Part shown: in pieces, positions 314-30,600 of the stretch
How the letters are laid out: the number at the start of each line of letters is the position of its first letter
How positions within the stretch are numbered: position 1 is the stretch's first letter
Source: Croceitalea sp.
Lineage (GTDB): Bacteria > Bacteroidota > Bacteroidia > Flavobacteriales > Flavobacteriaceae
Reading direction: 5' to 3'
DNA: 36,142 nucleotides
Assembly (NCBI GenBank): GCA_013001145.1
Contig: JABDND010000188.1
Span: 1 to 36,142, forward strand
The notes under the pieces: generated by a model
What the model was told of the DNA's origin: nothing
Seen by the model: only the letters and a program-made list of their open reading frames with translations
The model's database searches: none
Program-made: the position numbers and the translations under genes

Positions 314-3300
314 TTATGATGAAGCTGTACTTTGGACCATCAAAGGCTCTAAAACCTTCAATGCCTCATCAACAGAATTGATTCTGTCAAAGACCAGCAA
401 TAAACGAAGTCCATTGCGGGTCTGTTTTTCTTTGAGTTTACATTGCTGGGGATGGCTTTGCACGTATTGAAGTACGTGGGTGAAAACTGGGCTTTGATAG
501 AATTCAGATTGTTGGTCGGCGATAAAGTAGCCCAAAAATTTATGTTTTTTGAGTACCACTTTTTCAAGCCCAAGATGATTGGCCATCCATTTTACGCGCA
601 CCGAATTGAGCAGATCAACCGCTTGGGTGGGCAAATCACCAAAACGATCTACCAATTCTGCTTCAAATTGTTGAAGCGCCTCTTCTTCTTCAATTTCGTT
701 TAATTTGGTATATAGATTGAGCCGTTCTGTGATATTATTGATGTAGTCGTCGGGGAACAACAATTCAAAATCGGTATCAAGTTGTGTGTCTTTTACATAG
801 TGTTTTTCATGTTTGCCCTCTACTTCTTCATATAGTTCTTTAAATTCGTTTTCTTTCAATTCTTCAATGGCTTCAGCCAATATTTTTTGATAGGTTTCAA
901 AACCAATCTCGTTGATAAAGCCACTTTGTTCACCTCCCAACAGGTCTCCAGCACCCCTTATCTCCAAATCTTTCATGGCAATATTAAAACCACTGCCTAA
1001 CTCGGTAAACTGTTCCAGGGCTTCAATACGTTTGCGGGCATCTGTGGTCATGACTTCATAGGGTGGCGTGATAAAATAGCAAAAAGCTTTTTTGTTGCTT
1101 CTGCCCACACGACCGCGCATTTGGTATAGATCGCTTAGACCAAAATTGTTGGCATTGTGAATGAATATGGTGTTGGCGTTGGTCACATCCAAACCACTTT
1201 CGACAATGGTCGTAGAGACCAACACATCAAATTCACCGTTCATAAAGGCGAGCATTAAGGTCTCCAATTTTTTGCCTTCCATTTGCCCGTGGCCAATTCC
1301 AATTTTGGCATCGGGAACCAAGCGTTGGATCATGCCGGCGACTTCTTTGATATTTTCAATGCGGTTGTGGATAAAAAATACCTGCCCACCACGTTGTATT
1401 TCATAGGAAACGGCATCACGAATAATTTCTTCATTAAAGCGAATGACCCTACTTTCTATAGGATACCTATTCGGAGGGGGTGTATTGATCACTGAGAGGT
1501 CACGGGCCGCCATCAAACTAAATTGAAGGGTTCTTGGGATGGGGGTTGCCGTAAGGGTAAGTACATCTACATTTTCTTTGATGGACTTCAATTTGTCTTT
1601 TACGGCCACACCAAATTTTTGTTCTTCATCAACAATCAACAGACCCAAATCTTTGAATTTGACGTTTTTGTTGACCAATTGATGGGTTCCGATAATTATG
1701 TCCACTTTGCCGCTGGCCAAGCCTTCCAAGGTCTCCCGCTTTTCCTTTGCTGTTCTGAATCTATTTAGGTAATCAACGGTTACCGGCATTTCGGCCAAAC
1801 GTTCCTTAAAAGTACGATTATGCTGAAAGGCCAAAATAGTGGTAGGCACCAATACGGCCACTTGTTTACCATTGTCAACCGCTTTAAAGGCGGCACGTAT
1901 GGCGACCTCTGTCTTTCCAAAACCAACATCACCACAAATTAGACGGTCCATGGGCCGTTCGCTCTCCATATCTTTTTTGACATCCAATGTTGATTTTTCT
2001 TGATCTGGAGTATCTTCATAAATGAACGAGGCTTCCAGTTCGTGCTGCAAATAACTGTCTGGAGCGTATTGAAACCCTTTGTCCAATCTGCGTTTGGCAT
2101 ATACTTTTATAAGATCAAAGGCGATTTTTTTGACCCTGCTTTTTGTTTTTTGCTTTAATTTTTTCCAAGCGGCGGAACCTAATTTATAGATTTTAGGAGG
2201 CGCTCCATCCTTACCGTTATATTTTGAAATTTTGTGAAGGGAATGAATACTAACATACAAAATATCACGGTCGCCATACATTAGTTTTATGGCTTCTTGT
2301 TTTTTGCCCTCCACATCTATTTTTTGCAAGCCACCAAATTTGCCAATGCCATGGTCAATGTGGGTAACATAATCCCCAATCTCCAATTTGTTCAGTTCCT
2401 TTAAAGTGATGGCCTGTTTTTTGGCATAACCGTTTTTAAGGTGGAATTTGTGGTAGCGTTCAAAAATTTGGTGATCGGTATAGCAAATCAGTTTTTGTTC
2501 ATTGTCAATAAAACCTTGATATAAGGGAAATACAACAGTTTGGTAGTGGACCGTTTTTCCTACCTCGTCAAAAATATCATGAAAACGTTGTGCCTGTGAT
2601 TCTGTGGAACAGAAAATATAATTGGTGTAACCCAGTTCTTGATTTTCGTTGAGGTTTTCAATGAGCAAATCAAATTTTTTGTTGAACGAAGGCTGGGGTT
2701 TGGTATTGAATTCAATTTTCAAATCGTCGACCAGAGCGCCATTTGAACTGTTCAAGATAAGAGATGGCTTGCCAATTTCGATCAAGTCAAATTCGGGCAA
2801 CTGCTTTTTTAACAAGGTCGAACTCACAAAGAGTTCTTCGGGCTTGGCGTGCTTTATTTCTTCGCTGAGCTTCATAAAGCTTTCTCCGGCCTTGGCAAAA
2901 AAATCATCGATGCGATCAAAAACCAAATCTAAATTTTTGGTCAATACCACTGTTTTGGGAGAAATATATTTTAGAAAACTCTCTCGTGACTCTTGAAGAA
3001 ATTTGTTTTCTACATTGGGGATTATCGTAATTTTTTTGACCTTTTCGGTAGACAATTGGGTTTCAACATCAAAGGTTCTAATGCTCTCGACCTCGTCACC
3101 AAAAAATTCAATCCGATAAGGCTCGTCATGTGAAAAAGAGAAAACATCAACAATGCCCCCGCGCACGGAAAATTCGCCCGGTTCCGTTACAAAATCAACC
3201 CGTTTAAATTGGTATTCAAAAAGCACCTCGTTCAAAAAATCGAGTGATAAGGTGTCTTCCAACTTAATTTTCAAGGTATTCTTATCGAGCTCTTTTCGTG

Positions 3301-3733
3301 TGACCACTTTTTCAAACAAAGCATCAGGATAGGTGACAATTATGGCTGGTTTTTTACGGGAGTTAATGCGGTTGAGCACTTCTGCCCGCAACAACACATT
3401 GGCATTGTCTGTTTCTTCAATCTGATATGGCCTGCGATAACTGCCGGGATAAAAAAGCACTTCTTTTTCACCGATCAATTGTTCCAAATCATTAAGATAG
3501 TAGGCCGCCTCTTCCTTGTCATTCAGCAACACCAAGAAAGGTTGGTCGGCCGATTTAAATAGGTCTGAAATCACAAAGGAAAGTGCAGACCCCGTAAGTC
3601 CGGTAAGGTTGAGATGAATGGCTTTTGATGGATGCTCAAAATCACCAGAGGCTACCAAAGGGGCAAAACCTGTCCTCAATTTCCCTTGCGTGGGAGATTG
3701 TTCAAACAAGTTTACTATTGCGGCTTTGGTCAA
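314..3733 (-). CDS. mfd: Transcription-repair coupling factor Mfd
   Basis: Mfd removes RNA polymerase stalled at DNA lesions and recruits UvrA for nucleotide excision repair. The full family layout is visible: a UvrB-like N-terminal module with YPGSYRRPYQIEETDN; the RNA polymerase-interaction (CarD-like) domain around residue 450 (IGDYVTHIDHGIGKFGG); RecG-like helicase motor with Walker A GDVGFGKTEVA near residue 601, DEEQ box near 699, TATPIPRTL, and the QMRGRVGRS motif; then a C-terminal TRCF domain. About 1139 aa, close to E. coli Mfd (1148). Start choice: reading frames open further upstream (ATG at 3760, TTG at 3793), but a strong flavobacterial promoter (TTG-20 nt-TATATTTG, 3749-3779) overlaps those starts. 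The TTG at 3733 gives an N-terminus TKAAIVNLFEQSP that resembles other flavobacterial Mfd proteins. It follows pdeM, so damage-response genes sit side by side, but the promoter implies independent expression. Confidence 0.95.
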   Translation of the reverse strand: MTKAAIVNLFEQSPTQGKLRTGFAPLVASGDFEHPSKAIHLNLTGLTGSALSFVISDLFKSADQPFLVLLNDKEEAAYYLNDLEQLIGEKEVLFYPGSYRRPYQIEETDNANVLLRAEVLNRINSRKKPAIIVTYPDALFEKVVTRKELDKNTLKIKLEDTLSLDFLNEVLFEYQFKRVDFVTEPGEFSVRGGIVDVFSFSHDEPYRIEFFGDEVESIRTFDVETQLSTEKVKKITIIPNVENKFLQESRESFLKYISPKTVVLTKNLDLVFDRIDDFFAKAGESFMKLSEEIKHAKPEELFVSSTLLKKQLPEFDLIEIGKPSLILNSSNGALVDDLKIEFNTKPQPSFNKKFDLLIENLNENQELGYTNYIFCSTESQAQRFHDIFDEVGKTVHYQTVVFPLYQGFIDNEQKLICYTDHQIFERYHKFHLKNGYAKKQAITLKELNKLEIGDYVTHIDHGIGKFGGLQKIDVEGKKQEAIKLMYGDRDILYVSIHSLHKISKYNGKDGAPPKIYKLGSAAWKKLKQKTKSRVKKIAFDLIKVYAKRRLDKGFQYAPDSYLQHELEASFIYEDTPDQEKSTLDVKKDMESERPMDRLICGDVGFGKTEVAIRAAFKAVDNGKQVAVLVPTTILAFQHNRTFKERLAEMPVTVDYLNRFRTAKEKRETLEGLASGKVDIIIGTHQLVNKNVKFKDLGLLIVDEEQKFGVAVKDKLKSIKENVDVLTLTATPIPRTLQFSLMAARDLSVINTPPPNRYPIESRVIRFNEEIIRDAVSYEIQRGGQVFFIHNRIENIKEVAGMIQRLVPDAKIGIGHGQMEGKKLETLMLAFMNGEFDVLVSTTIVESGLDVTNANTIFIHNANNFGLSDLYQMRGRVGRSNKKAFCYFITPPYEVMTTDARKRIEALEQFTELGSGFNIAMKDLEIRGAGDLLGGEQSGFINEIGFETYQKILAEAIEELKENEFKELYEEVEGKHEKHYVKDTQLDTDFELLFPDDYINNITERLNLYTKLNEIEEEEALQQFEAELVDRFGDLPTQAVDLLNSVRVKWMANHLGLEKVVLKKHKFLGYFIADQQSEFYQSPVFTHVLQYVQSHPQQCKLKEKQTRNGLRLLLVFDRINSVDEALKVLEPLMVQSTASS

Positions 3734-3748
3734 TCCAAAAACTTTGTG

Positions 3749-3779
3749 CAAATATATCATTGCAAGTTCAGGGATACAA
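3749..3779 (-). promoter_or_regulatory. Promoter of mfd (TTG / TATATTTG)
   Basis: On the minus strand a TTG (3779-3777) lies 20 nt before a perfect TAnnTTTG box, TATATTTG (3756-3749). This matches the Bacteroidota primary sigma factor consensus. It lies downstream of the two upstream possible mfd starts, so it argues that translation starts at TTG 3733. Confidence 0.6.
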
Positions 3780-3826: not shown

Positions 3827-4459
3827 TCAGACTTTTACCACCTCATTTTCGACAATGACATATACCTCATCACTTTTGTTGGGCTTGAGCACATGGGTAC
3901 CTGTAAATTCACCAAAAGCGGGCAAAATAAGTTGATGGGTCGATTTAAAAAAGCACGGCAAACGAAGTCGTTGGCGCCCAAAACCTTGTAAGCGAATTGC
4001 CGGATGAATATGACCACAAAAATTGAAATACGATTCCCTTTCTTCAGGATGGTGGGTCAATAGGAAATCTTTTACAATCAACTCTTGGTACTGTTCGATT
4101 TCCAATGCGTCAAATTTTTCAGGTGCGATGATATCATGGTTGCCAGTGACCAAACTGATTTTTGATGGTGTCTTGGCCACCCAATTTTCAAAGAGTTGCC
4201 ATTCTTTGTTTAGGGAGGAGTGAAACAAATCGCCCAAAAAACAAATATGAAAAGGTTTAAAATGGGCCACCAATTTATCCAATAACATAAAATTTTTGTG
4301 CACCGCTTTACGGGGTACGGCAGCGCCAAACTTTCTAAAATGGGCCACCTTGCCCAAATGCACATCGCTGATGAGCAAGAGTGATTGGTCTATCCAAAAA
4401 ACACCCCCCAAAGGATGTAGCACAAATTCGGTATTTAGAATATGTAGGGTTTGGGTCAT
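3827..4459 (-). CDS. pdeM: Ligase-associated DNA damage response endonuclease PdeM
   Basis: A 210-aa calcineurin-like binuclear metallophosphoesterase. Metal-binding motifs appear in order: D32-V-H34, G-D77 in GDLFHS, G-N107-H108-D in GNHD, H136-H in LTHHP, and G-H150-I-H152 in GHIHP. Family members (Pseudomonas putida MPE) are manganese-dependent single-strand DNA endonucleases encoded with an Lhr-type helicase, an exonuclease and an ATP-dependent ligase. The same partners are directly upstream here. The start ATG overlaps the helicase stop by 4 nt (ATGA, 4456-4459), implying translational coupling. It is the last gene of the operon before the mfd promoter. The family call rests on motifs and context; biochemical activity is inferred from homologues. 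Confidence 0.9.
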   Translation of the reverse strand: MTQTLHILNTEFVLHPLGGVFWIDQSLLLISDVHLGKVAHFRKFGAAVPRKAVHKNFMLLDKLVAHFKPFHICFLGDLFHSSLNKEWQLFENWVAKTPSKISLVTGNHDIIAPEKFDALEIEQYQELIVKDFLLTHHPEERESYFNFCGHIHPAIRLQGFGRQRLRLPCFFKSTHQLILPAFGEFTGTHVLKPNKSDEVYVIVENEVVKV

Positions 4460-6918
4460 TTGTTCAGAATCTTGGTCATGCGTTTAATGCGGTCAGCCAG
4501 TTTTTCAGTCGATAACTTTTCGCGTAATCTATCTGTAATGATGGGGAACGAAAAAGGTGTCGGATTTTGACAGGCCTGCCATTTGATTTTTTGAGATGCG
4601 ATACGCTCCAAAGCCATGCGCAAACGTCCTTCTTCCAATTGGTGTTCAAAGGTTTCTGTAAACGCTTGTTGAAACAGCAGGTTGTCCGCCTCAAAATCTT
4701 TAAAAACATCAAAAAGCAACTGAGAGCTACTCTGTAAATGCTTCATTTTTATACCCTTATCTGGGTAGCCTGTAAAAACCATCCCACTTATCACGGCAAT
4801 ATCCCTGAATCTGCGGCGTGCCATTTCGTTTGAATTGAGGCTTTTTTGCAAATCGTCCAACATATATTGGGTAGTGAACAGGTTATTGTCCAAGATGGCT
4901 TGAATATCAATTACTTTATCTGATAGCAGTTCAAAGCCATAGTCATTGAAAGCAAGTGAACAGGTGATTGGCGACAATAAACTGATTCGATAGGCCAATA
5001 GGCTGCTCATGGCCTCATGCACCCCACGGCCTTCAAAAGGATAAAAAATATGGTGGTACCCATCTCGTGTTTTGAAGGTTTCAATCAAAAATTCATCGGG
5101 CTTCGGAACAATACTTTCAGTTCGCTGCTTAGCGAACAGTGGGGCCAAAGCCTTAATTTCTTTTGATTGTTTGGAGGCGTCCCGTTCGGCGGTATAAAGC
5201 TCTTCACGCAGTAATTTGGACATTTGGGCCGAAAAACTCAAACGACCACCCATCCAACTGGGTATTTTATTGGTGCGTTTGCTCGAATTGCGAACATGCG
5301 CCTGCATGCCCTTGATTCTGATAAATTCTAGATTTCTACCCGCAAAGGTAAATACATCGCCAGCGGTCAATTTTGATATGAAGGATTCTTCAATAGAACC
5401 GATATAACCTCCTTTTTGATAGCGTACCGCAATATTGGCATCGCCCACAATTGTGCCAATTTGAAATCGATGTCGCATGGCCATCCCTCGGTTATTGACC
5501 TTGAATTTACCATCATCTTCAACTTCAACTTTTTTGTATTCATCATAGGAGGAAAGACTTTGACTGCCCATGACCAAAAAGTTCAATAACCATTGCCATT
5601 GTTCTTCCGTCACCGCTTGATAGCAAAAAGTCTGTTTGATTTCTGGGTATATCTCATGGGGGTAAAAACCATCTGATACGGCCAGGGTGGTCAGGTATTG
5701 AATTAATACATCATAGCTGTTTAAATAAGGCAAACGATCTTCTACGGCCTCGGTCTTCACCGCCTTTTGTAAGGCCGATGCTTCAATCAATTCAATGGCA
5801 TGGGTAGGCATAAAGTAAATCACGCTTTCTTTACCTGGGCTGTGTCCACTTCTACCCGCTCGTTGTAAAAAGCGGGCGACCCCCTTTGGTCCGCCTATCT
5901 GAATCACGGTTTCCACAGGTGCAAAATCAACCCCTAAATCCAAGCTTGATGTGCAGACAACTGCTTTAAGACTTTCATTGCGTATGGCCTGCTCTACCCA
6001 GAGTCGCGTCTCTTTATTGATACTGCCATGGTGCATGGCTATTTCACCCGCATATTCCGGATGCTTTTCCAGTATTTTTTGAAACCATATTTCGCATTGA
6101 CTGCGCGTATTGGTGAACAACAAGGTCGTTTTGCTGTTATTGATGATGGGCACTACGGCTTCCAAAAGGTGAAGGCCCAAATGCCCGCGCCAAGGAAAAG
6201 TTTCCATCTTTTTGGGGATGATACTTTTAACGGTTATTTTTTTGTTCAATTTGGCTTTGATCAAAACGGAATTGTCCAAAGCTCCAGTGTTTGGTCCCAA
6301 TAGTACTTCCCTGGCTTGTTCCAAATTGCCAATAGTGGCCGAAATGCCCCAAACTCGTAAGTCATTGCAGATGGTTTTTAGTCGTGACAGGCCCAGTTCC
6401 ATCTGAATACCACGTTTGGTGCCCAGCAGTTCATGCCATTCGTCAACCACGATGGCCTCACAGTTTTTAAATACCTTTTCATAGCCTTTAGAAGACAATA
6501 ATAATTGTAGGCTTTCTGGGGTGGTGATTAATAGGTCGGGCATGGTAGTTTTTTGTCGTGCCCTTTCTTTGGTTGAGGTGTCCCCGGTACGTATGCCAAC
6601 CGTCATTTGGGTACCCAGCTCGTTGGTAATGCGTTCTGCCGATTGTTTGATTTCTTGTGAGAGGGCTCTGAGCGGCGTAATCCAGATGGCTTTAAGCCCC
6701 TTTTGATGTTTGGTTTTGTAATTGGGATTGTTTTTGATGTAACTCAGCACAATAGGAAACCACAGTGCATAGGTTTTTCCGCTGCCTGTGGGCGCGTTCA
6801 AAAGTCCATGCTGGCCTTTTAAATAGGCCGCCCAGGTTTCTTTTTGAAATGCAAAAGGTTTCCAGCCCTGTAGGTGGAACCAATTTTCTGCGGTTTCAAA
6901 AAGTTGTTTCTTGGTCAT
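4456..6918 (-). CDS. Ligase-associated DNA damage response DEXH-box helicase (Lhr-Core type)
   Basis: An 820-aa superfamily 2 helicase, the usual length of Lhr-Core proteins without the long C-terminal extension of full Lhr. Walker A is APTGSGKT (K48), DEXH box VVDEWHELLG near residue 158, motif III SATIGN, a helicase C domain with TSSLDLGVDF and QRAGRSGHSPGK near residue 350, then winged-helix and Lhr-specific beta-barrel domains in the C-terminal half. Lhr-Core enzymes are 3'-5' single-strand DNA translocases that unwind RNA:DNA hybrids and DNA. The gene starts 10 nt after the ligase stop and overlaps pdeM by 4 nt. Context with exonuclease, ligase and PdeM gives the specific family call. 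The exact lesion processed is not established for the family. Confidence 0.92.
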   Translation of the reverse strand: MTKKQLFETAENWFHLQGWKPFAFQKETWAAYLKGQHGLLNAPTGSGKTYALWFPIVLSYIKNNPNYKTKHQKGLKAIWITPLRALSQEIKQSAERITNELGTQMTVGIRTGDTSTKERARQKTTMPDLLITTPESLQLLLSSKGYEKVFKNCEAIVVDEWHELLGTKRGIQMELGLSRLKTICNDLRVWGISATIGNLEQAREVLLGPNTGALDNSVLIKAKLNKKITVKSIIPKKMETFPWRGHLGLHLLEAVVPIINNSKTTLLFTNTRSQCEIWFQKILEKHPEYAGEIAMHHGSINKETRLWVEQAIRNESLKAVVCTSSLDLGVDFAPVETVIQIGGPKGVARFLQRAGRSGHSPGKESVIYFMPTHAIELIEASALQKAVKTEAVEDRLPYLNSYDVLIQYLTTLAVSDGFYPHEIYPEIKQTFCYQAVTEEQWQWLLNFLVMGSQSLSSYDEYKKVEVEDDGKFKVNNRGMAMRHRFQIGTIVGDANIAVRYQKGGYIGSIEESFISKLTAGDVFTFAGRNLEFIRIKGMQAHVRNSSKRTNKIPSWMGGRLSFSAQMSKLLREELYTAERDASKQSKEIKALAPLFAKQRTESIVPKPDEFLIETFKTRDGYHHIFYPFEGRGVHEAMSSLLAYRISLLSPITCSLAFNDYGFELLSDKVIDIQAILDNNLFTTQYMLDDLQKSLNSNEMARRRFRDIAVISGMVFTGYPDKGIKMKHLQSSSQLLFDVFKDFEADNLLFQQAFTETFEHQLEEGRLRMALERIASQKIKWQACQNPTPFSFPIITDRLREKLSTEKLADRIKRMTKILNK

Positions 6919-6928
6919 AAAGCCTCAA

Positions 6929-8533
6929 TTAAGGGATAAGGTTCTTCAATTCTTCCAAAGTATTCGCATCTTCTATTCTTTTGTCCTTTCGCCACCTTAA
7001 AATTCTCGGAAAACGTGTAGCCACACCGCTTTTATGTCTTTTGGAGAAGGCGATGCCTTCAAAAGCAATTTCAAATACATGATGGGGGGTAACACTACGT
7101 ACCGGGCCAAAACGCTCCAAAGTATTTTTTTTGATCCAAGCATCGACTTCCCTAAACTCGGCATCAGTCAATCCTGAATAAGCTTTGGCAAAGGTTACCA
7201 ATTCTTTATTGCCATTTTCATTAGTCTGCCAAAGTGCAAAAGTGTAGTCCGTAAATAAATTACTGCGTCGGCCATGCCCTCGCATGGCATAGGTCAAGAC
7301 GGCATCAATGGTAAGGGGGTCCACTTTCCATTTCCACCAATCTCCTTTTTTACGTCCAACTTTATAACTGGAATTCTTATGCTTTATCATTAATCCTTCA
7401 CTGCGCATTTCACGCGACCGTTCTCGTTCAGCGCCTACGTCATCCCAAGAAGAAAAATCAAGGCGCTCGGATAAGTGCAAGGGAATATTATCGCCTTTAT
7501 TCTTAGTCGTAAATAATTCTTCCAAGAGTTGCCTGCGTTCAAGAAAACTTTTTCCACGAATATCATCTCCTTGCCATTCCAACAAATCGTATGCCATAAG
7601 AATAACGGGTGTTTTTTCCAATAATGCTCTTGATACCGTTTTACGGCCTATTCGGGTTTGGAGTTCATTAAAACTGCCAATTGCACCTTTGGGGTATGGC
7701 AGTATTTCACCGTCAAGAACAGTGCCATTGGGTAACACACCAATAAATTGTTCAAATTCTGGGTATTTGTCAGTTACCAGTTCTTCGCCTCTGCTCCATA
7801 CAAATAGCTCATCATTTCTAATGATTATCTGAGCTCTTATGCCGTCCCATTTATGTTCTATGCTCCAATCATCAACTGCGCCAAGCGATGCTGCTTGATC
7901 TTCAATGGCATAGGCCAAATAGAAAGGGTAAGGCTTACTCAAATAATCGCTGGCCCTTTCCTTTAAAACCAAGTCTTCAAACGAAATGGTAGTTGGGTCC
8001 CAATTGCCCATCAATTTATAGGCCAGCACATCTTCATCCAATTGGGTGGCTTTGGCCAATGCCCTGGTCATTAATTTTTGGCTGATGCCTATTCTAAAAC
8101 CCCCAGTTATCAATTTGGTGAATACAAAGCGCTCATAGTAATTTAAACACTTCCAATTTTCAAAGAGGTAGGTTTTTTTTTCTTCATCCGTTTTGGCCTT
8201 GAGGGCTTTCATTTCCTCTAAAAACAGGGTCAAACTTTTGGTAGTGGATTTTTGTGTTGAAGGAACTACCAGAGCGATGGTTTCGGCCAGATCGCCGACA
8301 ATATGATAGCTTTCTTCAAATAACCAAAGCGGAATTTTGGCCAGTTGCGAAGCCCATTCCCTTAATAAAGTGGTATTTACAGGCCGTGTGGGTCTGCGAT
8401 GTGATAGTATGGCAATGGTCCATACTTTATCGGTATCGTTGGCTTCATTAAAATACGTCGTCAATGCCTGCACTTTTATAGTGGTCTTATTCGTGCTGTC
8501 CAAGGTTTTTATGAGCTGGGCGAATTGTTTCAT
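6929..8533 (-). CDS. ATP-dependent DNA ligase (ligase-associated repair operon)
   Basis: A 534-aa ATP-dependent ligase, separate from the NAD-dependent LigA used in replication. It has an N-terminal DNA-binding domain (residues 1-200, with GGFRIGIS), the adenylation domain with motif I EHKWDGIR (predicted AMP-accepting Lys228), VLDGEIL, and the motif GLMIKHKNSSYKVGRKKGDWWKWK, then an OB-fold with RFPRILRWRKDK. The length and layout match the LigB/LigC-like bacterial ligases of about 530 aa found with beta-CASP exonucleases. The start ATG overlaps the upstream exonuclease stop by 4 nt (8530-8533). Its role is probably nick sealing at the end of the pathway carried out by this operon. Confidence 0.94.
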   Translation of the reverse strand: MKQFAQLIKTLDSTNKTTIKVQALTTYFNEANDTDKVWTIAILSHRRPTRPVNTTLLREWASQLAKIPLWLFEESYHIVGDLAETIALVVPSTQKSTTKSLTLFLEEMKALKAKTDEEKKTYLFENWKCLNYYERFVFTKLITGGFRIGISQKLMTRALAKATQLDEDVLAYKLMGNWDPTTISFEDLVLKERASDYLSKPYPFYLAYAIEDQAASLGAVDDWSIEHKWDGIRAQIIIRNDELFVWSRGEELVTDKYPEFEQFIGVLPNGTVLDGEILPYPKGAIGSFNELQTRIGRKTVSRALLEKTPVILMAYDLLEWQGDDIRGKSFLERRQLLEELFTTKNKGDNIPLHLSERLDFSSWDDVGAERERSREMRSEGLMIKHKNSSYKVGRKKGDWWKWKVDPLTIDAVLTYAMRGHGRRSNLFTDYTFALWQTNENGNKELVTFAKAYSGLTDAEFREVDAWIKKNTLERFGPVRSVTPHHVFEIAFEGIAFSKRHKSGVATRFPRILRWRKDKRIEDANTLEELKNLIP

Positions 8534-9558
8534 TCCAGTTCGTTTTTTGAAGAATCAGTAGAATTGATTTCTGCCAATTCGCCCTCATACTGGGTTTGTT
8601 CCGTTCGGGCATCATAACCCAATTCCCTTAAATATCTTGAAAAGATATCGGTGTAGCCATGTGTACAAATAATTTTTTCGGCCCCTGTTGATTTTATGGC
8701 CTGCAATAATCCAGGCCAATCACAATGATCGCTTAGTACAAAGCCCTTATCTATGGCACGCCTTCGGCGTGCACCCCTAAAGGCCATCCAGCCACTGGCC
8801 GAGGCCGTTACAAAGGGTACCATTTTGCGAATCCAAGTACTGCCATGGGCAGAAGGAGGGGCAATAACGATGTTGCCTTTTAAGGCATCTTTTTTTGTAT
8901 CTCTGGTAATCAATTCTGTTTCTGGAAATTTAGCTAAGGAACGAAGCACCTGGGTCATGTTTTCAACAGCACCGTGAGTGTAAATCTTGCCAATTGAAGG
9001 GTCTAAATGTTTTAAGAGGCGTTGTGCCTTGCCCAATGAATAACCAAATAGGACAGAAGTTTGCCCTTGGGCCTTATTCTCTGCCCACCAATTATTGATA
9101 TCGTTCATGACCTGCTTTTGGGGTGTCCATAAAAAAGCGGGTAACCCAAAGGTACATTCGGTAATGAAGGTATGGCATTTTACAGTTTCATAAGGCGTGG
9201 CCAATCCGTCGTCCTCAATTTTATAATCTCCTGTAAAAACCCAAATCTCACCTTTATGTTCAACTCGTATTTGTGATGAACCCAAAATATGACCTGCAGG
9301 ATGCAAGCTAAAAACAACCCCATTTATGGTAAAGGTTTCTCCCCAATCCTTGCCCGCAATATTGACATCGCCAAGGCGATGCTTTACGATGGGTACGTTC
9401 TTGTGATGGGTAATATAGCTTTTATGTCCCCAGCGACTGTGATCGGCATGGCCATGCGATATAATGGCCTTATCTACAGGTTTCCATGGGTCTAAATAAA
9501 CCTTGGCGGGTTCGCAGTATATTCCTTTAGATGTAAATTGAAGCAAAGGGGCATTCAT
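8530..9558 (-). CDS. Ligase-associated DNA damage response exonuclease (MBL/beta-CASP)
   Basis: A 342-aa metallo-beta-lactamase fold nuclease with beta-CASP features. The zinc motif HGHADHSRWG (H35, H37, D39, H40) is intact. Further motifs are HPAGHILGSSQ, the FTGDYK segment, and the late DHCDWPGL and CTHGYT histidine motifs. Homologues (LAE family; P. putida Exo) are encoded first in operons with an ATP-dependent ligase, an Lhr-like helicase and PdeM, exactly as here. The likely role is trimming DNA ends before sealing. It is the first gene of the operon. The 87 nt to the divergent TerB-like gene must hold its promoter, but no clean TAnnTTTG box was found on this strand. Confidence 0.92.
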   Translation of the reverse strand: MNAPLLQFTSKGIYCEPAKVYLDPWKPVDKAIISHGHADHSRWGHKSYITHHKNVPIVKHRLGDVNIAGKDWGETFTINGVVFSLHPAGHILGSSQIRVEHKGEIWVFTGDYKIEDDGLATPYETVKCHTFITECTFGLPAFLWTPQKQVMNDINNWWAENKAQGQTSVLFGYSLGKAQRLLKHLDPSIGKIYTHGAVENMTQVLRSLAKFPETELITRDTKKDALKGNIVIAPPSAHGSTWIRKMVPFVTASASGWMAFRGARRRRAIDKGFVLSDHCDWPGLLQAIKSTGAEKIICTHGYTDIFSRYLRELGYDARTEQTQYEGELAEINSTDSSKNELE

Positions 9559-9593
9559 AGCTGTGTGAATTTACAATTTCTTTTGGCTTTAAT

Positions 9594-12975: not shown

Positions 12976-14781
12976 ATGGGGCTGGTATCGGCGAAAGAAG
13001 TTGCAAAAGTCATACACCTGGATAAGTATGGGCCAATAGGTACCTTCATTGGGTGGTTACTTATGGTGACAACACGTATAACGACCATCAATAGATTTTA
13101 CGATAAAAACAAATCTTTGCCCGGGCCTGAATTTTTGGATGCCATATTAAAGCATTATGAAATTCATTTTGATATACCTGAGGAAGACCTAAAACGTTTG
13201 CCCAAAACAGGGCCTTTTATCACAATATCCAATCACCCATTGGGAGGCATTGACGGCGTACTTTTGTTAAAGTTAATGCTCAAAGAACATCCAAACTTTA
13301 AGATAATAGCCAATTTTTTATTGCACCGAATAGAGCCCTTAAAGCCCTTTATTATGCCGGTCAACCCCTTTGAAACACATAAGGATGCCAAAAGTAGTGT
13401 TATGGGATTCAAAAATGCGCTACTGCATTTGCGTGAAGGTCATCCCTTGGGTATTTTCCCAGCGGGCGAGGTATCTACCTATAGGGATGGTAAATTGGTA
13501 GTGGATCGTCCTTGGGAGGAAGCTGTCATTAAATTGATACGCAAAGCAGAAGTACCTGTGGTGCCCATTTATTTTCACGCCAAAAACAGCAAGCTCTTTT
13601 ATAGGTTGTCTAAAATTAACGATGTGTTCAGAACGGCCAAATTACCCTCTGAGCTAACGACCCAAAGCCGAAGGCCCATAAAGGTACGCATTGGCCAACC
13701 CATATCAGTGGCCGCACAAAAGGAAGAAACAAGTCTGGAAGATTTTACAGAACTTTTACGTAAAAAAACCTATTTGCTGGCCAACGTTTACGAAAAAGGA
13801 AGGTTGATAGATAAAGTGCCCACCAGTTTAAAAATACCCATGCCCCCTAAAAAAATTGCCACGGCTGTGCGCACGGAGGTTATTCAGGGTGAAATTGAAA
13901 AATTACGTGAAAAAGATTGCCGTTTGCTTCAGAGCAAAAATTACGAAGTGTTCTTGGCGCAAGAAAAAGACATGCCCTTTATTTTAAAGGAAATTGGCAG
14001 ACAACGAGAAGTTACGTTTAGGGCCATAGGTGAGGGTACCAATAATTCCATTGATCTAGATAAGTTTGACTCCTATTACCATCACCTTTTTCTTTGGGAC
14101 GATGAAGACAAGGCCATTGTAGGTGCTTATAGAATGGGTCTAGGTTCACAAATATTCAAAGCATATGGCATTGATGGTTTCTACCTTCAAGATTTGTTCG
14201 GATTTGAGCCCGAATTGTATGACATGATGGAAAAATCAATAGAAATGGGTCGTGCATATATCGTCAAGGAGTACCAGCAGAAACCAATGCCTCTATTTTT
14301 ACTATGGAAGGGAATCGTTCATACCACCTTGCGATATCCTGAACATAAATATTTAATAGGTGGGGTAAGTATTAGCAATCAATTTTCAAATTTCTCCAAA
14401 TCATTGATGATTGAATTTATGAAGTCGCATTACTGGGATCCATATGTGGCCCAGTATGTTCGACCCAAAAAAGAATTCAAGGTGAAATTGAGTGATGCCG
14501 ACAAGGAGTTTGTTTTTGATGAAACGCAAGCCGATTTGAACAAGTTCGATAGATTGATCGAAGAGGTTGAGCCCGGGTCTTTACGTTTGCCCGTATTGAT
14601 AAAAAAATACATTAAACAAAATGCTAGAGTGGTCGCTTTCAACGTAGATCCGCTCTTTAACAATTCTGTTGACGGATTAATGTACATTAAAATAGCCGAT
14701 TTGCCCGAAAGCACGGTAAAGCCCGTTATGGAAGAATTTCAGGCCGAATTGGAACGCAAGTTGAACGAATCACACGATTAA
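12976..14781 (+). CDS. Bifunctional OlsF-like aminolipid synthase (PlsC + OlsB-like acyltransferases)
   Basis: A 601-aa two-domain membrane-associated acyltransferase. The N-terminal half (about 1-290) is a PlsC-like O-acyltransferase with the NHX4D motif N-H87-PLGGI-D93, FPAGEVST, and VPVVPIYFH. The C-terminal half (about 310-600) is an OlsB/hemolysin-like GNAT N-acyltransferase with VGAYRMGLG, a GRAYIVKEYQ segment and KYLIGGVSISNQF. This fusion matches OlsF, shown in Serratia and homologues to make ornithine lipids by N-acylation then O-acylation. Bacteroidota also make glycine and lysine lipids, so the head group cannot be set from sequence. A WLLM hydrophobic segment near residue 27 may anchor it. 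Its TAA stop shares a TTAA with the convergent arsC stop. Confidence 0.75.
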   Translation: MGLVSAKEVAKVIHLDKYGPIGTFIGWLLMVTTRITTINRFYDKNKSLPGPEFLDAILKHYEIHFDIPEEDLKRLPKTGPFITISNHPLGGIDGVLLLKLMLKEHPNFKIIANFLLHRIEPLKPFIMPVNPFETHKDAKSSVMGFKNALLHLREGHPLGIFPAGEVSTYRDGKLVVDRPWEEAVIKLIRKAEVPVVPIYFHAKNSKLFYRLSKINDVFRTAKLPSELTTQSRRPIKVRIGQPISVAAQKEETSLEDFTELLRKKTYLLANVYEKGRLIDKVPTSLKIPMPPKKIATAVRTEVIQGEIEKLREKDCRLLQSKNYEVFLAQEKDMPFILKEIGRQREVTFRAIGEGTNNSIDLDKFDSYYHHLFLWDDEDKAIVGAYRMGLGSQIFKAYGIDGFYLQDLFGFEPELYDMMEKSIEMGRAYIVKEYQQKPMPLFLLWKGIVHTTLRYPEHKYLIGGVSISNQFSNFSKSLMIEFMKSHYWDPYVAQYVRPKKEFKVKLSDADKEFVFDETQADLNKFDRLIEEVEPGSLRLPVLIKKYIKQNARVVAFNVDPLFNNSVDGLMYIKIADLPESTVKPVMEEFQAELERKLNESHD

Positions 14782-15200
14782 TTGACCAATTCTTCTTTGA
14801 TAAAGGTTTCACAGAATTCCTTCACTTCCTCCCTAGTTTTTAGAAATGCCTCGTGAATTTCTTCATCGGTACCTTGTACTTTCGATGGGTCTATAAAATT
14901 GTGATGTAATCGTTGTGCATTTTTAGCGGGAATGTAAGGACAATGTTCTTTGGCATGGTCACAAACGGTTATGATGAAGTCCCACTCAATGTCTTTGTAC
15001 TCGTCAACATGATTAGAGGTATGATGTGATATATCAACCCCGTCTTCTTTCATAATGGCCACTGCCCCTGGATTGAGCCCATGAGTCTCAATACCCGCAC
15101 TATAAATTTTTGCAAGGTCACGTTGATAGCTTTCCAGATACCCATGAACCATTTGGCTTCTGCATGAATTGCCAGTACACAAAACCAAAATATTTTTCAT
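14778..15200 (-). CDS. arsC: Thioredoxin-coupled arsenate reductase (LMW-PTP fold)
   Basis: A 140-aa reductase of the low-molecular-weight phosphatase fold. It carries the P-loop CTGNSCR with nucleophile C8 and C13, plus C80 and C87 in VCDHAKEHC, the redox shuttle pair whose spacing matches Staphylococcus aureus ArsC (C82/C89). An FIDPSK motif with D104 supplies the general acid. It converts arsenate to arsenite using thioredoxin. It is the last gene of an arsR-led group, with 22 nt to the acetyltransferase upstream, which supports an arsenic role over a tyrosine phosphatase role. The stop overlaps the stop of the convergent acyltransferase gene. Confidence 0.93.
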   Translation of the reverse strand: MKNILVLCTGNSCRSQMVHGYLESYQRDLAKIYSAGIETHGLNPGAVAIMKEDGVDISHHTSNHVDEYKDIEWDFIITVCDHAKEHCPYIPAKNAQRLHHNFIDPSKVQGTDEEIHEAFLKTREEVKEFCETFIKEELVN

Positions 15201-15222
15201 TATTAACTATTTACTTGTGAAA

Positions 15223-15717
15223 TTAATCTATTCCTACAATTTTACTGCGCCTCTCATACAATAAATTGTCTTTCCAAAGTCCATCTTTAGTTTTGCCCAC
15301 TCGTTCTCGTTTGCCTATAAAGCGGAACCCAACTTTCTCATGCAACACAATACTGCCCATATTTTCTGGAAAGATTCCCGACTGCAATGTCCAATAGCCT
15401 CCTGCCTCACTTTGAGTTATCAATTCGTGCATCAAAGCTTTGCCAACACCCTTGCCTTGGCTGTCAGCTGCGATATACACACTTACTTCGGCAACACCAC
15501 CATAAACACAGCGGCTTGAAACAGGTGATAGAGCGGCCCACCCCAATATCTGACCGTTTTTTTCGGCGACCAAGCGGCATATTTTCAAATGGCCTTGATC
15601 CCAGTTTTTAAATTCTGGTACTGTTGATTCAAAAGTGGCATAACCCGTGTCCATGCCTTGGGCATAAATTTTGGCCACTGCTCCCCAGTCATATGAAGTC
15701 ATCGGTCGAATTCGCAT
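15223..15717 (-). CDS. GNAT acetyltransferase, phosphinothricin/arsinothricin (ArsN1)-like
   Basis: A 164-aa GNAT of the phosphinothricin acetyltransferase type: RIRPMTSYDWGAVAKIYAQG at the N-terminus, GWAALSPVSSRCVYGGVAEVSVYI in the core, the acetyl-CoA loop S-Q-G-K-G-V-G-K-A, and HEKVGFRFIGKRERVGK near the end. Relatives in ars operons (ArsN1) acetylate arsinothricin, an arsenical analogue of phosphinothricin. Placement between an arsR-led operon head and arsC supports that role here, but substrate is inferred. ATG 15717 is preferred over ATG 15759 because it lies after the stop of the upstream gene and starts on the conserved RIRPM. Confidence 0.8.
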   Translation of the reverse strand: MRIRPMTSYDWGAVAKIYAQGMDTGYATFESTVPEFKNWDQGHLKICRLVAEKNGQILGWAALSPVSSRCVYGGVAEVSVYIAADSQGKGVGKALMHELITQSEAGGYWTLQSGIFPENMGSIVLHEKVGFRFIGKRERVGKTKDGLWKDNLLYERRSKIVGID

Positions 15718-15731
15718 AACCACAATTTTAG

Positions 15732-16220
15732 TTAGCAACAACCGCTGCCAGGCGCACATTGTTCTTGGGTGGTTGCGCCTACTTCAACTGGTACACCACA
15801 GGTTTCTTTGGCTTTGCAATCTGTTTTTTCTACCGCAAGTTTTATTATAAGCCGTTCATTGTTCCAAATAAAATCATCCACGAACAGTTGTGCTGTGTGA
15901 AAATGAGGATTGCTGTACTCAAATTTAACCTCAGCGTCGCCTTCCATGGCCTTTATCCTGTTCACTTTGTTCAAAATGCCCAATGCCTTAAATCCACTCA
16001 TAAACGCCTTCTTATCTTTTTCTTCCGGACTTTCCCACAATTGAATAATGGTTTCTTTCCAAAAATCGGTCCCGGCTCCACAGTCAACGGAATCAATAGT
16101 GATGTTTTTTATTTCTGTAATGTGGTAATTCGGCGCGACAAAATGGCCTGGTTTGTATTCAAAGAGTAATTCTTTGTTTTTATGGGTATTCAATAATGTC
16201 AATAATTCTTTTGTTTTCAT
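15732..16220 (-). CDS. DUF6428 protein of an arsenic operon, Cys-rich tail
   Basis: A 162-aa protein of a family (DUF6428) seen in Bacteroidota arsenic operons. It has the conserved block NYHITEIKNITIDSVDCGAG followed by FWKETIIQLWES, then VKFEYSNPHFHTAQLFVDDF. The C-terminal 35 residues are cysteine-rich: TDCKAKETCGVPV, then QCAPGSGCC at the end. Six cysteines in this tail suggest binding of a soft metal or metalloid such as arsenite, but no function has been shown that I know of. Start ATG 16220 is chosen over an in-frame TTG at 16229, which would overlap arsR. It follows arsR by 2 nt, so it is co-transcribed with it. Confidence 0.78.
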   Translation of the reverse strand: MKTKELLTLLNTHKNKELLFEYKPGHFVAPNYHITEIKNITIDSVDCGAGTDFWKETIIQLWESPEEKDKKAFMSGFKALGILNKVNRIKAMEGDAEVKFEYSNPHFHTAQLFVDDFIWNNERLIIKLAVEKTDCKAKETCGVPVEVGATTQEQCAPGSGCC

Positions 16221-16222
16221 AA

Positions 16223-16546
16223 TTAGCAACAGTTTTGATTAATATTGGAAAAGAAGGCATTGAAGTATTGCTGCAGGGCCTCCCATTTTTCTCGATTGAT
16301 ACAATAACAAAGGTTTTTGCCTTCAAAAGTTCCTTTTAAAAGCCCTATTTTTTTTATTTCATTCAAATGTTGTGAGATAGTTGGCTGTGCCAAACCAATT
16401 ACGTCGACCAAATCGGTACAGATACAATTTTCTTGTTTGCTGATATACTCTAAAATGGCAATACGTGCCGGGTGGGCCAGTACTTTAGCGGCTTGGGCAA
16501 GTTCATTCTCGGCGATTGAAAAAATATGTGTTTTGGACGCTCCCAA
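16223..16546 (-). CDS. arsR: ArsR-family repressor
   Basis: A 107-aa winged-helix metalloregulator. The sequence VLAHPARIAILEYISKQENCICTDLV is the ArsR core, with C41-I-C43 in the helix that forms the arsenite sensor in many ArsR proteins (typical motif ELCVCDL). The recognition helix is LAQPTISQHLNEIKKIGL. Extra cysteine pairs occur at C80/C82 and at the very end (C106/C107). The start appears to be TTG at 16546; no in-frame ATG was found upstream. A 16-bp palindrome lies 16 nt before the start. The protein likely represses its own operon (DUF6428, GNAT, arsC) and releases DNA on arsenite binding. Confidence 0.9.
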   Translation of the reverse strand: MGASKTHIFSIAENELAQAAKVLAHPARIAILEYISKQENCICTDLVDVIGLAQPTISQHLNEIKKIGLLKGTFEGKNLCYCINREKWEALQQYFNAFFSNINQNCC

Positions 16547-25372: not shown

Positions 25373-26689
25373 TTATTCTTTTTCTTGAGGTAAAATCCAG
25401 GCGTTATGTGAAAAATGCTTCCATGGAACCGCAGCCAGGTCAATTTGGGGGTCTATAAAAGGTTTATAACGGCTTTGGTTGATTTTGACACTCGAAGTCA
25501 CATACACGCTAATGTCTACTCCTTTTCTTTGGTATTCATCTTTCAAGTATTGGGCAAATTGCCAAGCAAAATCTGGATAGGCGCTCACTTTGCCCCGTTG
25601 TTTTTTGGTCAAATAATTATCCAAATTAATAGCTGTTTCTTCACCATTTAATTTGTTGACGACCTTGTATTGTATTCTGCCCTGGCGACTGCGCAACATC
25701 ATGCGCCAACTTAAACGATGCCCTTCTTCGGTCCATAATACATCATCTTTAAAAAAGTGATGTCTTATAGGCAACGCCAATTGAACGGTAAAATAAATAC
25801 CTAGAACCCAGAGCAGTGGCCTTTGGTATTTTGGTGGTTTTGCTTTTTGAATACTGTTCACGATTTTATTTTGCCTAAACAACTTGCGGATGGTCTCGGG
25901 TTCAAAAAAGAACACACAGAAGGCAAGTGATAAATAGGGAAAAATCCCGATTCTAAAAACGATGCTGTTGAACAAATGAAAGAAAATGGATAAGGCAAAA
26001 GCATATTTTCGAGTGGGTTTGTAAAGAAGGGCGGGCACCACTAATAGGTCAAAGGCGATACCAAAAACGGCAACAATCTTATGTACCCATTTTTCTTGCA
26101 ATAATTCACCGATCAAAAAATAATCGGCTTTGGAACGCATTAGCAAATCAATAATGCTAAAATCAAGCCAATCGCCATATAATTTAGCGACCGATGCATA
26201 GGTGTAGACAATGAGCAACTGAAAAATAATAATCCAGCGAACAAAATTGTACATATGGTCACTTTTTATTTTGGGGTCTAATTTGGCGTCAAGAGATAAA
26301 TTTTTGTTGGCGGGTAAGAATGCCATGATGTATGCCAACAACATTAATAAATAGTAGTGATTGTTGTACGATGTTTTTTGCATTAGATAAACACCTGTCC
26401 ACATTAGGGCGAAGGTCATTGCACTAAATCTGTATTTATAGCCTATACTGATCAAAAGGCCCAAACAGCCCATGGCAAAAAAGTAATAGTACATGCCATT
26501 GCCTGACAAAGGTTGCAACCATTCGAATCCGATGAAGGAAAAGGTAAACTTGGGTTCAATCAAAGTTCTTCTGACCCAACCGGTGCCTATGGCGCCAAAA
26601 CATTCTGCACTGACCAAAAGCCCATATAAGACCCTAAAAATGAGCAGTTGAATATTGTCTATTTTTTTAAAAAGAAATTGATTGATCAC
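25373..26689 (-). CDS. HTTM (vitamin K-dependent gamma-carboxylase-like) membrane protein
   Basis: A 438-aa protein whose first about 300 residues hold several hydrophobic helices with the HTTM pattern (FRVLYGLLVSAECFGAIGTGW; KTSYNNHYYLLMLLAYIMAFLPAN; VYTYASVAKLYGDWL). The last, with K169 followed by L-Y-G-D-W, resembles the VKKLDADW region of human gamma-glutamyl carboxylase, whose Lys218 is the catalytic base. The C-terminal 130 residues form a soluble domain (HRLSWRMMLRSRQGRIQYKV). Bacterial relatives have no proven substrate. The start is GTG, one nucleotide after the ribF stop, so it is coupled to ribF. Confidence 0.83.
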   Translation of the reverse strand: MINQFLFKKIDNIQLLIFRVLYGLLVSAECFGAIGTGWVRRTLIEPKFTFSFIGFEWLQPLSGNGMYYYFFAMGCLGLLISIGYKYRFSAMTFALMWTGVYLMQKTSYNNHYYLLMLLAYIMAFLPANKNLSLDAKLDPKIKSDHMYNFVRWIIIFQLLIVYTYASVAKLYGDWLDFSIIDLLMRSKADYFLIGELLQEKWVHKIVAVFGIAFDLLVVPALLYKPTRKYAFALSIFFHLFNSIVFRIGIFPYLSLAFCVFFFEPETIRKLFRQNKIVNSIQKAKPPKYQRPLLWVLGIYFTVQLALPIRHHFFKDDVLWTEEGHRLSWRMMLRSRQGRIQYKVVNKLNGEETAINLDNYLTKKQRGKVSAYPDFAWQFAQYLKDEYQRKGVDISVYVTSSVKINQSRYKPFIDPQIDLAAVPWKHFSHNAWILPQEKE

Positions 26690-27671: not shown

Positions 27672-30600
27672 ATGAGAGCTAAATTACATTTTGTTTTATC
27701 AATTTCCATATTTTTTAGCTGGTTTTACGGATTCTCCCAAATTGATTATTGGAAATCTAGGTCAGCCAGTAGTATGGCAAGTGCGTTGCCATCAGGTAGG
27801 GTAGCTCCCGTCTTCGAATTGCGACAAGACCTCTTCGAACGAGCGCTCAACATAGTTGGCGATGATGGCCAACAACAGATTTATTTGCCAAATGAATCAG
27901 GTAACTTAGAAGGCTTTGCGGTACTTGAAACGCCGGTTTTTCATCCAAAGTTAGCGGCCAAATATCCAGCTATTAAATCATATACAGGATGGAGCGACAG
28001 CGGTTTGCGCAAAGTCCGCTTCAGCTATTCGCCCAAGGGATTACAGGTCATGCTCATTGACCGAAGAAAAGGAAAGACATTTTTTATTGAACAGATTGGC
28101 TCGCAAGCCGATACCTATGGTATTAAGGATAATCGCTCTAAGACCCGTGAATTTATTTGTAAAACCCAGGCATTGGCCGAGAAATTTCAAAATAGGCCCT
28201 CTGTGTTAATCGATGATCAAACTCTAAGAAAGTTTAGGATTGCGGTTTCAGCCACCGGGGAATATACAACTTACCATGGGGGTACTGTTGAAGATGCTTT
28301 GGCAGCAATAAATGCCACGTTAACAAGGGTAAACGAAGTATTTGAATCGGACTTGGGCGTTGTATTGGAATTGATTGGCAATAATGATCAGGTGATTTTT
28401 GTAAGTGCAGGAGCAGACCCCTATGGAAACAATCTTAATGCAGAAGTGCAGAGTACTCTTACCAGTACCATTGGAGAAAGTAATTATGATGTAGGGCATT
28501 TATTCCATAGGGACAATGATAATGGCAATGCTGGTTTTATAGGGTCCGTATGCTCAGATAATAGAAAAGGCAGTGCTTTTTCTTCTGCGATGGAACCCGA
28601 AGGCGATGATTTTGATTTGGATTATGTTGCCCACGAACTGGGCCATCAATTTGGGGCCAACCATACCTGGTCTTTTGAATCGGAAAATACAGGTGTGCAA
28701 GCAGAACCTGGCAGTGGCACTACCATTATGGGCTATGCTGGCATCGTAGATGGGAGCAATGTTGCCCCTGATGGTGATGAGTATTTTCATTACAACAGTA
28801 TTTTACAAATTGGTAACTATTTACAGACAATAGCTTGCGCTCAGACCAGTCCGTTAACAAATACGCCACCTGTAGTCGCACCTTTGAATGACCAAATAAT
28901 CCCTAAGGGAACGCCCTTTTTGCTTACGGCCAATGCCTTTGACCCTGATTTGGACGATGTGCTCACCTATACTTGGGAACAAATCGACGATGGGGTTGTC
29001 ACTGCCGCCAATTTTGGTCCTGACAATGCATCTGGGGCCAATTTCAGGTCCTTGTTGCCAACAACTTCGCCAACCCGTTTTTTTCCAAAACTTTCAAGGG
29101 TGGTTTCCGGTCAATTGACCCAAGTGAACCCTGTTCTCAATTCGGCTTGGGAAACGGTATCTAATGTTGAGCGTGAACTTAATTTTGCCATTACGGTTAG
29201 GGACAATGCCATAGGCGGTGGCCAAGTTGCCTCTGAAATTGTCAAAGTTCAAGTTACCAATAGCGCTGGCCCATTTGTGGTGAATTCCCAGAATGGCAAT
29301 GAAACTTATATCGGAGGGAGTGTTCAAGAAATTAGCTGGGATGTGGCCAATACCAATAGGGCTCCCATAAATGCGACCCAAGTAGATGTTTATTTTTCTT
29401 TGGATGGTGGGGCCACTTTTCCCTTATTGATTGCAGAAGGCATTATAAATAATGGTACAGCCAATGTTCAATTGCCAGGTATCGCCACTTCAACCGGGCG
29501 AATTATGATTAGAGCTGCCAACAATATATTTTTTGCAATGAATGGGGCAAATATCACCATTGAAGAATCTCCCTTCCTTTTATCATTTGACCAATTGATT
29601 TATGACATTTGCCAACCCAACGATGTCACTATTCCCTTCGAGTATGAAACCAATGGTGATTTTGCCGAAGAGGTAACTTTTGCCGCAACCTTGCCCGCCG
29701 GGTTGACCGCAGTTTTTACGCCACCTAATGTAAATGGGAGTAGTAGCCCGGTAAATATGGATATCAATGGAATATCGACTTTGGATACCGGTAATTATCC
29801 CATAAGTGTGACCGCTACTTCCGCCAGCGAAACACGAACAATTCCACTTGAAATCAACGTATATGATGGTAATTTCGAAGCAGTTACTTTAGAAGAGCCC
29901 TTGGATAATGCCACTAATACGGCATTGAAACCAGAGCTGCGGTGGATGATGAATCCAAATTTCACCATGTATCAAGTTCAAATTGCCACGGATGTGGATT
30001 TTACAACAATTGTAGAAGATGTAATGGTGGCTTTTAATACATATGAACCCACCAATTTGATGGCCGAAACAACCTATTATTGGCGCGTAAAACCCAGTAA
30101 TGAATGTGGTGAGGGAACGTTTGGATTGCCTTTTAGCTTTACCACGTCCATTATTGATTGTGGTTTATTTGATACCGACCAGCAACCCCTTGAGATTTCG
30201 GCAAACGGTATGCCCACGCTGACCTCGGTCATCAGTGTGGCCCAAGATTTTGTGCTTTTCGATGTCAATGTAATACTCGAGATTTCCCATACTTATTTGG
30301 AAGACTTGGTCATAAGCCTAATATCACCTTCAGGAACAACCGTTGTACTTACTTCTAAAAATTGCGGCAGTCTCAATAATCTCAACGCAACATTTGATGA
30401 TGCGGGAAGCCCAATTGCCTGTAGTGGCAACCCGGCCATCAGCGGAGTTTTACAACCGGTAGGGTCCCTTGCCGCTTTCAATGGAGAGTCGATATTGGGA
30501 GAGTGGACCCTGCAAATTGAAGACACAGCATCTAGTGATGGAGGCTCTTTGGATGCTTTTTCACTTGAATTTTGTGTAGAAGGTATTCTGAGGCCCGATG

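Follow-up and report, generated by a model that had tools for sequence, protein, structure and literature searches.

A contig of Croceitalea sp. carries an intact four-gene DNA repair operon, exo-lig-lhr-pdeM, and the reading that we consider probable joins a promoter upstream of exo, an Lhr-PdeM core with Exo and Lig as accessory enzymes, a mechanism of lesion processing, and a neighbouring mfd gene that is separate and linked by synteny. The window analysed here is the whole contig of 36,142 bases, from an assembly of 2.6 Mb that is 88% complete, and its closest named relatives by Lhr are Flavobacteriaceae, for example Muricauda and Maribacter. The four-gene cluster and the association of Lhr with the metallophosphoesterase MPE were known beforehand, both from published work; a literature search joining Flavobacter, ATP-dependent DNA ligase and Lhr, with most subscription papers outside its scope, found no paper. 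Genomes that keep Lhr and PdeM after losing Exo and Lig provide a ready natural comparison, from which it can be predicted which deletions should matter and which should be backed up, and the promoter result for mfd makes the attractive case for a transcription-coupled pathway weaker.

An intact exo-lig-lhr-pdeM locus

The four-gene repair operon noticed in a first-pass annotation of this DNA is confirmed at positions 3827-9558, where the ORFs follow one another head to tail, all on the minus strand (Table 1). Read directly at the three junctions, exo and lig share a 4-nt overlap (ATGA), lhr and pdeM do likewise, and lig and lhr are separated by a 10-nt gap, the layout that the annotation had given. 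Its identification of an exonuclease, an ATP-dependent ligase, an Lhr-like helicase and PdeM also holds: all four genes score above the curated NCBIfam cut-offs of TIGR04120-04123, in contiguous and co-directional order. Because this order repeats in many Bacteroidota loci and in two pseudomonadotal plasmid records, the arrangement is not a product of chance. Judged from its sequence, the locus is a further member of a known cluster, the published Lhr-Core/MPE/Exo/Lig family to which the annotation had referred it, carried as an intact chromosomal copy.

Table 1 Operon genes, the neighbouring mfd gene and promoter-like elements in the window
Feature	Position	Strand	Length	Family score	Description
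exo	8530..9558	-	342 aa	TIGR04122 466.7 bits (cut-off 325)	ligase-associated exonuclease, predicted MBL/beta-CASP
lig	6929..8533	-	534 aa	TIGR04120 621.5 bits (cut-off 400)	ATP-dependent DNA ligase (LigB type), nucleotidyl lysine K228
lhr	4456..6918	-	820 aa	TIGR04121 1131.1 bits (cut-off 850)	Lhr-Core SF2 helicase without C-terminal extension
pdeM	3827..4459	-	210 aa	TIGR04123 223.7 bits (cut-off 150)	manganese-type metallophosphoesterase nuclease (MPE)
mfd	314..3733	-		TIGR00580 987.6 bits (cut-off 800)	downstream neighbour, outside the four-gene unit
mfd box	3749..3756	-			TATATTTG, candidate Bacteroidota -7 promoter box of mfd in the pdeM-mfd gap; TAnnTTTG match
exo element	9568..9574	-			GTAAATT, promoter-like, proposed operon transcript start region; -16 from exo ATG

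The catalytic motifs, described earlier as intact, were all located. Exo carries HGHADH at residue 35, and H35, H37, D39, H40, D111, H278 and H300 are invariant across 13 sequences. The protein has no Pfam match at an E value of 0.001 and, by sequence, no close relative among solved structures (best E value 2.6e-07); beta-CASP nucleases make up all of the best 50 structural matches listed for its AlphaFold model (pLDDT 84, pTM 0.82), at Z 25-29 and nearly full length. Foldseek matches to the model include DCLRE1A (8cg9; TM 0.66/0.68), the human protein that we take to be SNM1A. On this model Exo is predicted to adopt an MBL/beta-CASP fold over nearly its whole length, as do the CPSF73 and RNase J beta-CASP nucleases and DCLRE1A, but it is at most 21% identical to them among the alignments listed, and the modelled likeness is one of fold only. 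Lig has KWDGIR at 228 and the Pfam domains DNA_ligase_A_N/M/C. Lhr, with GSGKT at 45 and DEWH at 159, matches DEAD, Helicase_C, WH_Lhr and DEAD_assoc in Pfam and, in two stretches over the core, the Mycobacterium smegmatis Lhr core structure (PDB 5v9x). It shows the Lhr-Core architecture of two RecA domains, a winged helix and domain 4 with no C-terminal domain, and it is not of the Lhr-HTH type of mycobacteria and E. coli, which has a C-terminal winged-helix domain of about 600 aa: the protein stops at residue 820 with no further domain. PdeM carries DVHLGK (32), GDLFHS (76), GNHD (106), HHP (136) and GHIHP (149) and matches the solved P. putida nuclease MPE (PDB 6nvo, 6nvp; E value 4e-30); with its motifs aligned to 6nvo, it is predicted to keep the binuclear metal site of MPE.

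The Pseudomonas putida Lhr-Core/MPE/Exo/Lig cluster was reportedly described by Ejaz and Shuman in 2018. As excerpts of the literature present that cluster, the window shares with it all four families, an Lhr-Core without C-terminal extension and an MPE homologous to 6nvo; the exo-lig-lhr-pdeM order is a further likeness, judged from pseudomonadotal plasmid records and not from the P. putida locus, and the difference lies in the flavobacterial context of the window's operon, between fbp/terB-like genes and mfd. The M. smegmatis lhr-nei2 crosslink-repair operon also places the gene of a DNA-processing enzyme downstream of that of an Lhr-family helicase, but according to passages of PMC11323726 its Lhr is a tetrameric protein of 1507 aa with a C-terminal domain, and the Nei2 glycosylase stands in place of MPE, Exo and Lig. 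In the same passages, loss of full-length Lhr sensitised M. smegmatis and the Lhr core alone failed to complement. A phage search returned two partial matches at 28-29% identity.

Lhr and PdeM occur without Exo and Lig

Across 149 same-family genomes, one per genus, Lhr was above cut-off in 49, including one listed with an in-frame TAG (G073), and was broken in one more (G104), giving 50 carriers; PdeM was present in the same 50. Lig was found in 43 of the 149, all 43 with lhr and pdeM, and none of the 149 had lig without lhr or lhr without pdeM. Seven carriers (G018, G026, G037, G102, G104, G106 and G126), searched genome-wide, have lhr (broken in one) and pdeM and lack lig and an above-cut-off exo, with weak exo matches of 34 bits in G126 and 28 bits in G037; lhr and pdeM in these seven still lie downstream of fbp and a terB-like gene. 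A set of 50 locus neighbourhoods contains lig in 41, each time with exo, and lhr and pdeM only in seven; the remaining two are G010, with parts on three contigs, and G072, with a distant helicase only. On a quickly built Lhr tree of 49 rows, which has SH-aLRT support only and omits G104 and G072, the state of lig changes at least five times, gains and losses taken together, while lhr and pdeM persist, and the six lig-less rows all fall inside one 16-row group that includes the window. The pattern suggests that Exo and Lig can be lost while Lhr and PdeM stay.

In a phylum sample of 296 genomes, Lhr was above cut-off in 74, and PdeM was present in all of these plus three in which Lhr was not above cut-off. 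Of 49 Lhr carriers in the window's class, eight were without lig and exo above cut-off, and lig above cut-off without Lhr occurred only in G407, at a contig end. The 25 Lhr genomes of other classes comprise 20 with only a divergent, below-cut-off lig, three with an above-cut-off lig and two with none. Since 23 of the 43 other-class genomes with a divergent lig are without an above-cut-off Lhr, and nine genomes of other classes have exo above cut-off without lig above cut-off, the dependence of Exo-Lig on Lhr-PdeM is not universal and fails outside the class. The divergent lig of these 43 genomes often lies near a divergent exo, both below the curated cut-offs, and the two possibly represent a separate family. 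Plasmid records from Comamonas and Paracoccus (L091, L093) have the complete exo-lig-lhr-pdeM order, and those from Paraburkholderia and Sinorhizobium have lhr-pdeM, with neither exo nor lig among the annotated genes within 6 kb. According to passages of PMC8301817, 276 of 319 genomes have an MPE close to blhr.

These distributions bear on two other explanations. The four proteins might form an obligate complex of fixed stoichiometry, which would agree with the conservation of the overlaps, above all at exo-lig: spacing there is exactly -4 in 45 of 82 loci and tight (-30 to 60) in 71, and is tight at lig-lhr in 65 of 87 and at lhr-pdeM in 66 of 99, versus 9 of 39 at pdeM-mfd (all counts including two duplicate loci). 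Such a complex is nevertheless highly unlikely, given that lig and an above-cut-off exo are missing genome-wide from seven of 50 carriers, that ORFs are inserted in a number of relatives, and that only 23 of the 44 phylum-sample genomes with all four genes above cut-off keep all three junctions on one strand within 3 kb (exo-lig 39, lig-lhr 29, lhr-pdeM 29). The description of the operon as a fixed stoichiometric unit in the first-pass annotation is not supported, in view of the same seven carriers and of three in which pdeM is far from lhr (G010, G031 and G100). Alternatively, loci without exo and lig might be decaying remnants, uninformative on a functional Lhr-PdeM core. G104, one of the seven, does have a broken lhr, one lig-less pair shows the highest pN among six pairs tested, and pN/pS is uninformative on constraint after Exo-Lig loss because pS is saturated (0.74-0.89). 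The other six genomes, however, have intact PdeM motifs and intact Lhr motifs (with two conservative variants), pN in three lig-less pairs is 0.110-0.158 for Lhr and 0.223-0.317 for PdeM versus 0.088-0.127 and 0.236-0.265 in three carrier pairs, and both genes persist through the repeated changes of lig state on the tree. We therefore regard decay as unlikely and retain a functional Lhr-PdeM core as the preferred reading.

Inserted ORFs were also considered as a hidden fifth component and set aside. Four of the 50 neighbourhoods (L037, L042, L051 and L067) share a related ORF of 120-155 aa that separates lig from lhr, and three sizes of ORF are found repeatedly in the pdeM-mfd interval, about 265 aa in 17, 380 aa in 10 and 450 aa in 13 of 50 loci; the other inserts are mostly singletons or small groups.

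A promoter-like element upstream of exo

Bacteroidota sigma factors recognize a -7 box, TAnnTTTG, according to passages of PMC9723704 and PMC6847099. In loci of the Flavobacteriaceae range (L036-L084 and L094-L119, minus two duplicates), we scanned the 100 nt preceding each gene and found the box before exo in 3 of 55 loci, before lig in 2 of 55 and before lhr in 3 of 73. It occurs upstream of pdeM in 22 of 64 loci versus 19 of 190 in-gene control windows, more commonly where pdeM is over 30 nt from lhr (14/25) than where it is closer (8/39). The window itself has no TAnnTTTG upstream of pdeM, no -7 box at any of the three operon junctions and no full box before exo. TAnnTTTG has 47 matches in the window, both strands together, and because matches on the operon strand fall within exo (9154) and lhr (5350), internal transcription starts may exist. 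Sigma-70 and terminator scans stayed near shuffle level (18 versus 15.8 and 12 versus 9.4), and a single tRNA is the only Rfam match above cut-off in the window.

A different element, GTAnnTT, stands before exo at exactly -16 in the window, as it does in 12 of 13 hand-chosen clade loci. Its strict form, TTnGTAnnTT, which the window does not fit, precedes exo in 18 of 55 loci versus 5 of 165 in-gene windows, a control that is post hoc because the element was noticed by eye before counting. Of 11 loci that lack exo and lig, six have the strict form before lhr (control 0/33); it is found there in none of the 62 others, among which lig is mostly present. A looser form, counted with no control, is present in nine of the 11, and two lack even this; seven of the 11 come from wholly searched genomes, and four are without both genes at the locus only. 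From these patterns we infer a single operon promoter just upstream of exo, and we read the element before lhr as a putative exo promoter that survived the excision of exo and lig. Because seven of 50 carriers lack lig and an above-cut-off exo, and an exo-type element precedes lhr in six of the 11 loci, Lhr-PdeM looks like the core and Exo-Lig like an optional part. A stronger version for Bacteroidia would have nested modules, a self-sufficient Lhr-PdeM and a dispensable Exo-Lig that was excised several times in the window's clade and left the exo promoter driving lhr; our judgement on this version is evenly balanced.

mfd as a syntenic neighbour

Immediately downstream of pdeM, on the same strand, lies mfd. 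Many relatives carry an in-frame stop right before the TTG homologous to TTG 3733 of the window, so mfd probably starts at 3733; the alternative starts, 3793 (longest ORF) and 3760 (first ATG), are both upstream of the mfd promoter box. The re-assigned start therefore sets the pdeM-mfd gap at about 93 nt. TAnnTTTG precedes mfd in 26 of 35 relatives' loci (26 of 41 with six uncertain-start loci included) versus 3 of 105 in-gene control windows, and mfd appears to be a separately switched-on transcription unit, into which readthrough from pdeM may occur. A hairpin predicted over the gap (z -3.05) would lie upstream of the mfd transcript if the mfd box is its promoter; by eye nothing similar is seen in segments of six relatives (L059, L060, L064, L084, L094 and L097), and the hairpin was set aside.

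Of the 50 family carriers, 35 have mfd downstream of pdeM in the same orientation and no more than 10 kb away, seven of them with less than 150 nt between matched stretches, and 15 are unlinked. Eight of the unlinked carriers form a divergent clade; compared with the genes of the window, identity there is 46-52% for exo, lig and lhr and 31-36% for pdeM. The median pdeM-mfd interval is 1172 nt (39 loci), often with other ORFs inside; in L097 the two genes are separated by some 40 nt. In 37 of the 83 non-carriers that have both mfd and fbp, a same-strand fbp precedes mfd at a distance of up to 10 kb, and in 25 of these less than 900 nt separate the two, distances that would fit a terB-like gene or nothing; 46 are without this arrangement, 20 of them with both genes on one contig. 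The fbp-terB-mfd block that surrounds the operon therefore also occurs in its absence. In a named set of 80 loci, with flanks of at most 10 kb that small contigs cut shorter, mfd adjoins the operon in 14. All are Flavobacteriaceae-type records, titled with the family name, in one case with Flavobacteriales only, or with a genus that we presume to belong to the family; L099 and L118 among them come from contigs already present in the first locus set. Within flanks of at most 10 kb, the set's Saprospiraceae, Chitinophaga, Pedobacter, Mucilaginibacter, Sphingobacterium and Chryseobacterium records have no such linkage, and in these 80 loci the adjacency is not conserved beyond one family.

The first-pass annotation had proposed from the position of mfd a link to transcription-coupled repair, and in its full form this explanation makes operon and mfd one functional, co-transcribed unit, a transcription-coupled branch of the repair pathway. 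The same-strand gap of about 93 nt and the linkage in 35 of 50 carriers speak for it, as does the location of pdeM within 7 kb of mfd in the three carriers where it is far from lhr. Its best point is the tight adjacency in divergent marine MAGs (L114-L119), which suggests that the arrangement is old in the family, yet needs no functional link. The -7 box of mfd itself, present here and in most relatives' loci, the loose spacing and patchy linkage all speak against mfd as a fifth operon member, and the occurrence of fbp-mfd without the operon and the confinement of linkage to Flavobacteriaceae-type records weigh further against a common unit, which we consider improbable. Conserved adjacency to mfd, whose absence in relatives the annotation had named as refuting its reading, holds by half: linkage within 10 kb is kept in most family carriers, near-direct adjacency in few, and the transcription-coupled link is weak. 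The adjacency appears to be mostly inherited family-level synteny and is no evidence for transcription-coupled repair; passages of a Caulobacter paper give mfd and lhr as separate repair genes.

Proposed mechanism of lesion processing

By analogy with characterized enzymes, we infer a pathway for adducts or crosslinks in which Lhr opens, PdeM cuts, Exo resects and Lig seals. Lhr-Core would track 3'-to-5' along one strand and open the duplex at a lesion, PdeM would incise the single strand so exposed, Exo would resect from the PdeM nick, and Lig would seal after housekeeping resynthesis. The pattern of gene loss suggests that Exo and Lig are replaceable steps, and they may serve as accessory clean-up for which other exonucleases and the NAD-dependent ligase could substitute. 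A bulky adduct or inter-strand crosslink would be the favoured lesion, a type borrowed from M. smegmatis Lhr, whose C-terminal domain the window's Lhr lacks. The title of one paper is said to call MPE a single-strand DNA endonuclease. Passages of another term it a manganese-dependent exonuclease and state that Lhr-Core proteins translocate 3' to 5' (PMC7437997). The enzyme roles are drawn from passages of PMC7437997, PMC8301817, PMC10140301 and PMC11323726, and those of PMC10140301 describe the lesion and biological role of the cluster as unknown.

Other features of the window

Elsewhere in the window, genes for an ArsR-type regulator, a DUF6428 protein, a GNAT acetyltransferase and an LMWPc (arsenate-reductase-like) protein stand in a row at 14778-16546 on the minus strand and look like a small arsenic-response operon. 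A gene at 25373-26689 (minus strand) encodes an HTTM protein with a vitamin K-dependent gamma-carboxylase lumenal domain and adjoins a FAD synthetase/riboflavin kinase gene. On the plus strand, 27672-32095 holds a reprolysin-like metalloprotease of 1247 aa with a P-domain and a type IX sorting tail, whose ORF shares a 4-nt overlap with a 227-aa ORF that has an fn3 match.
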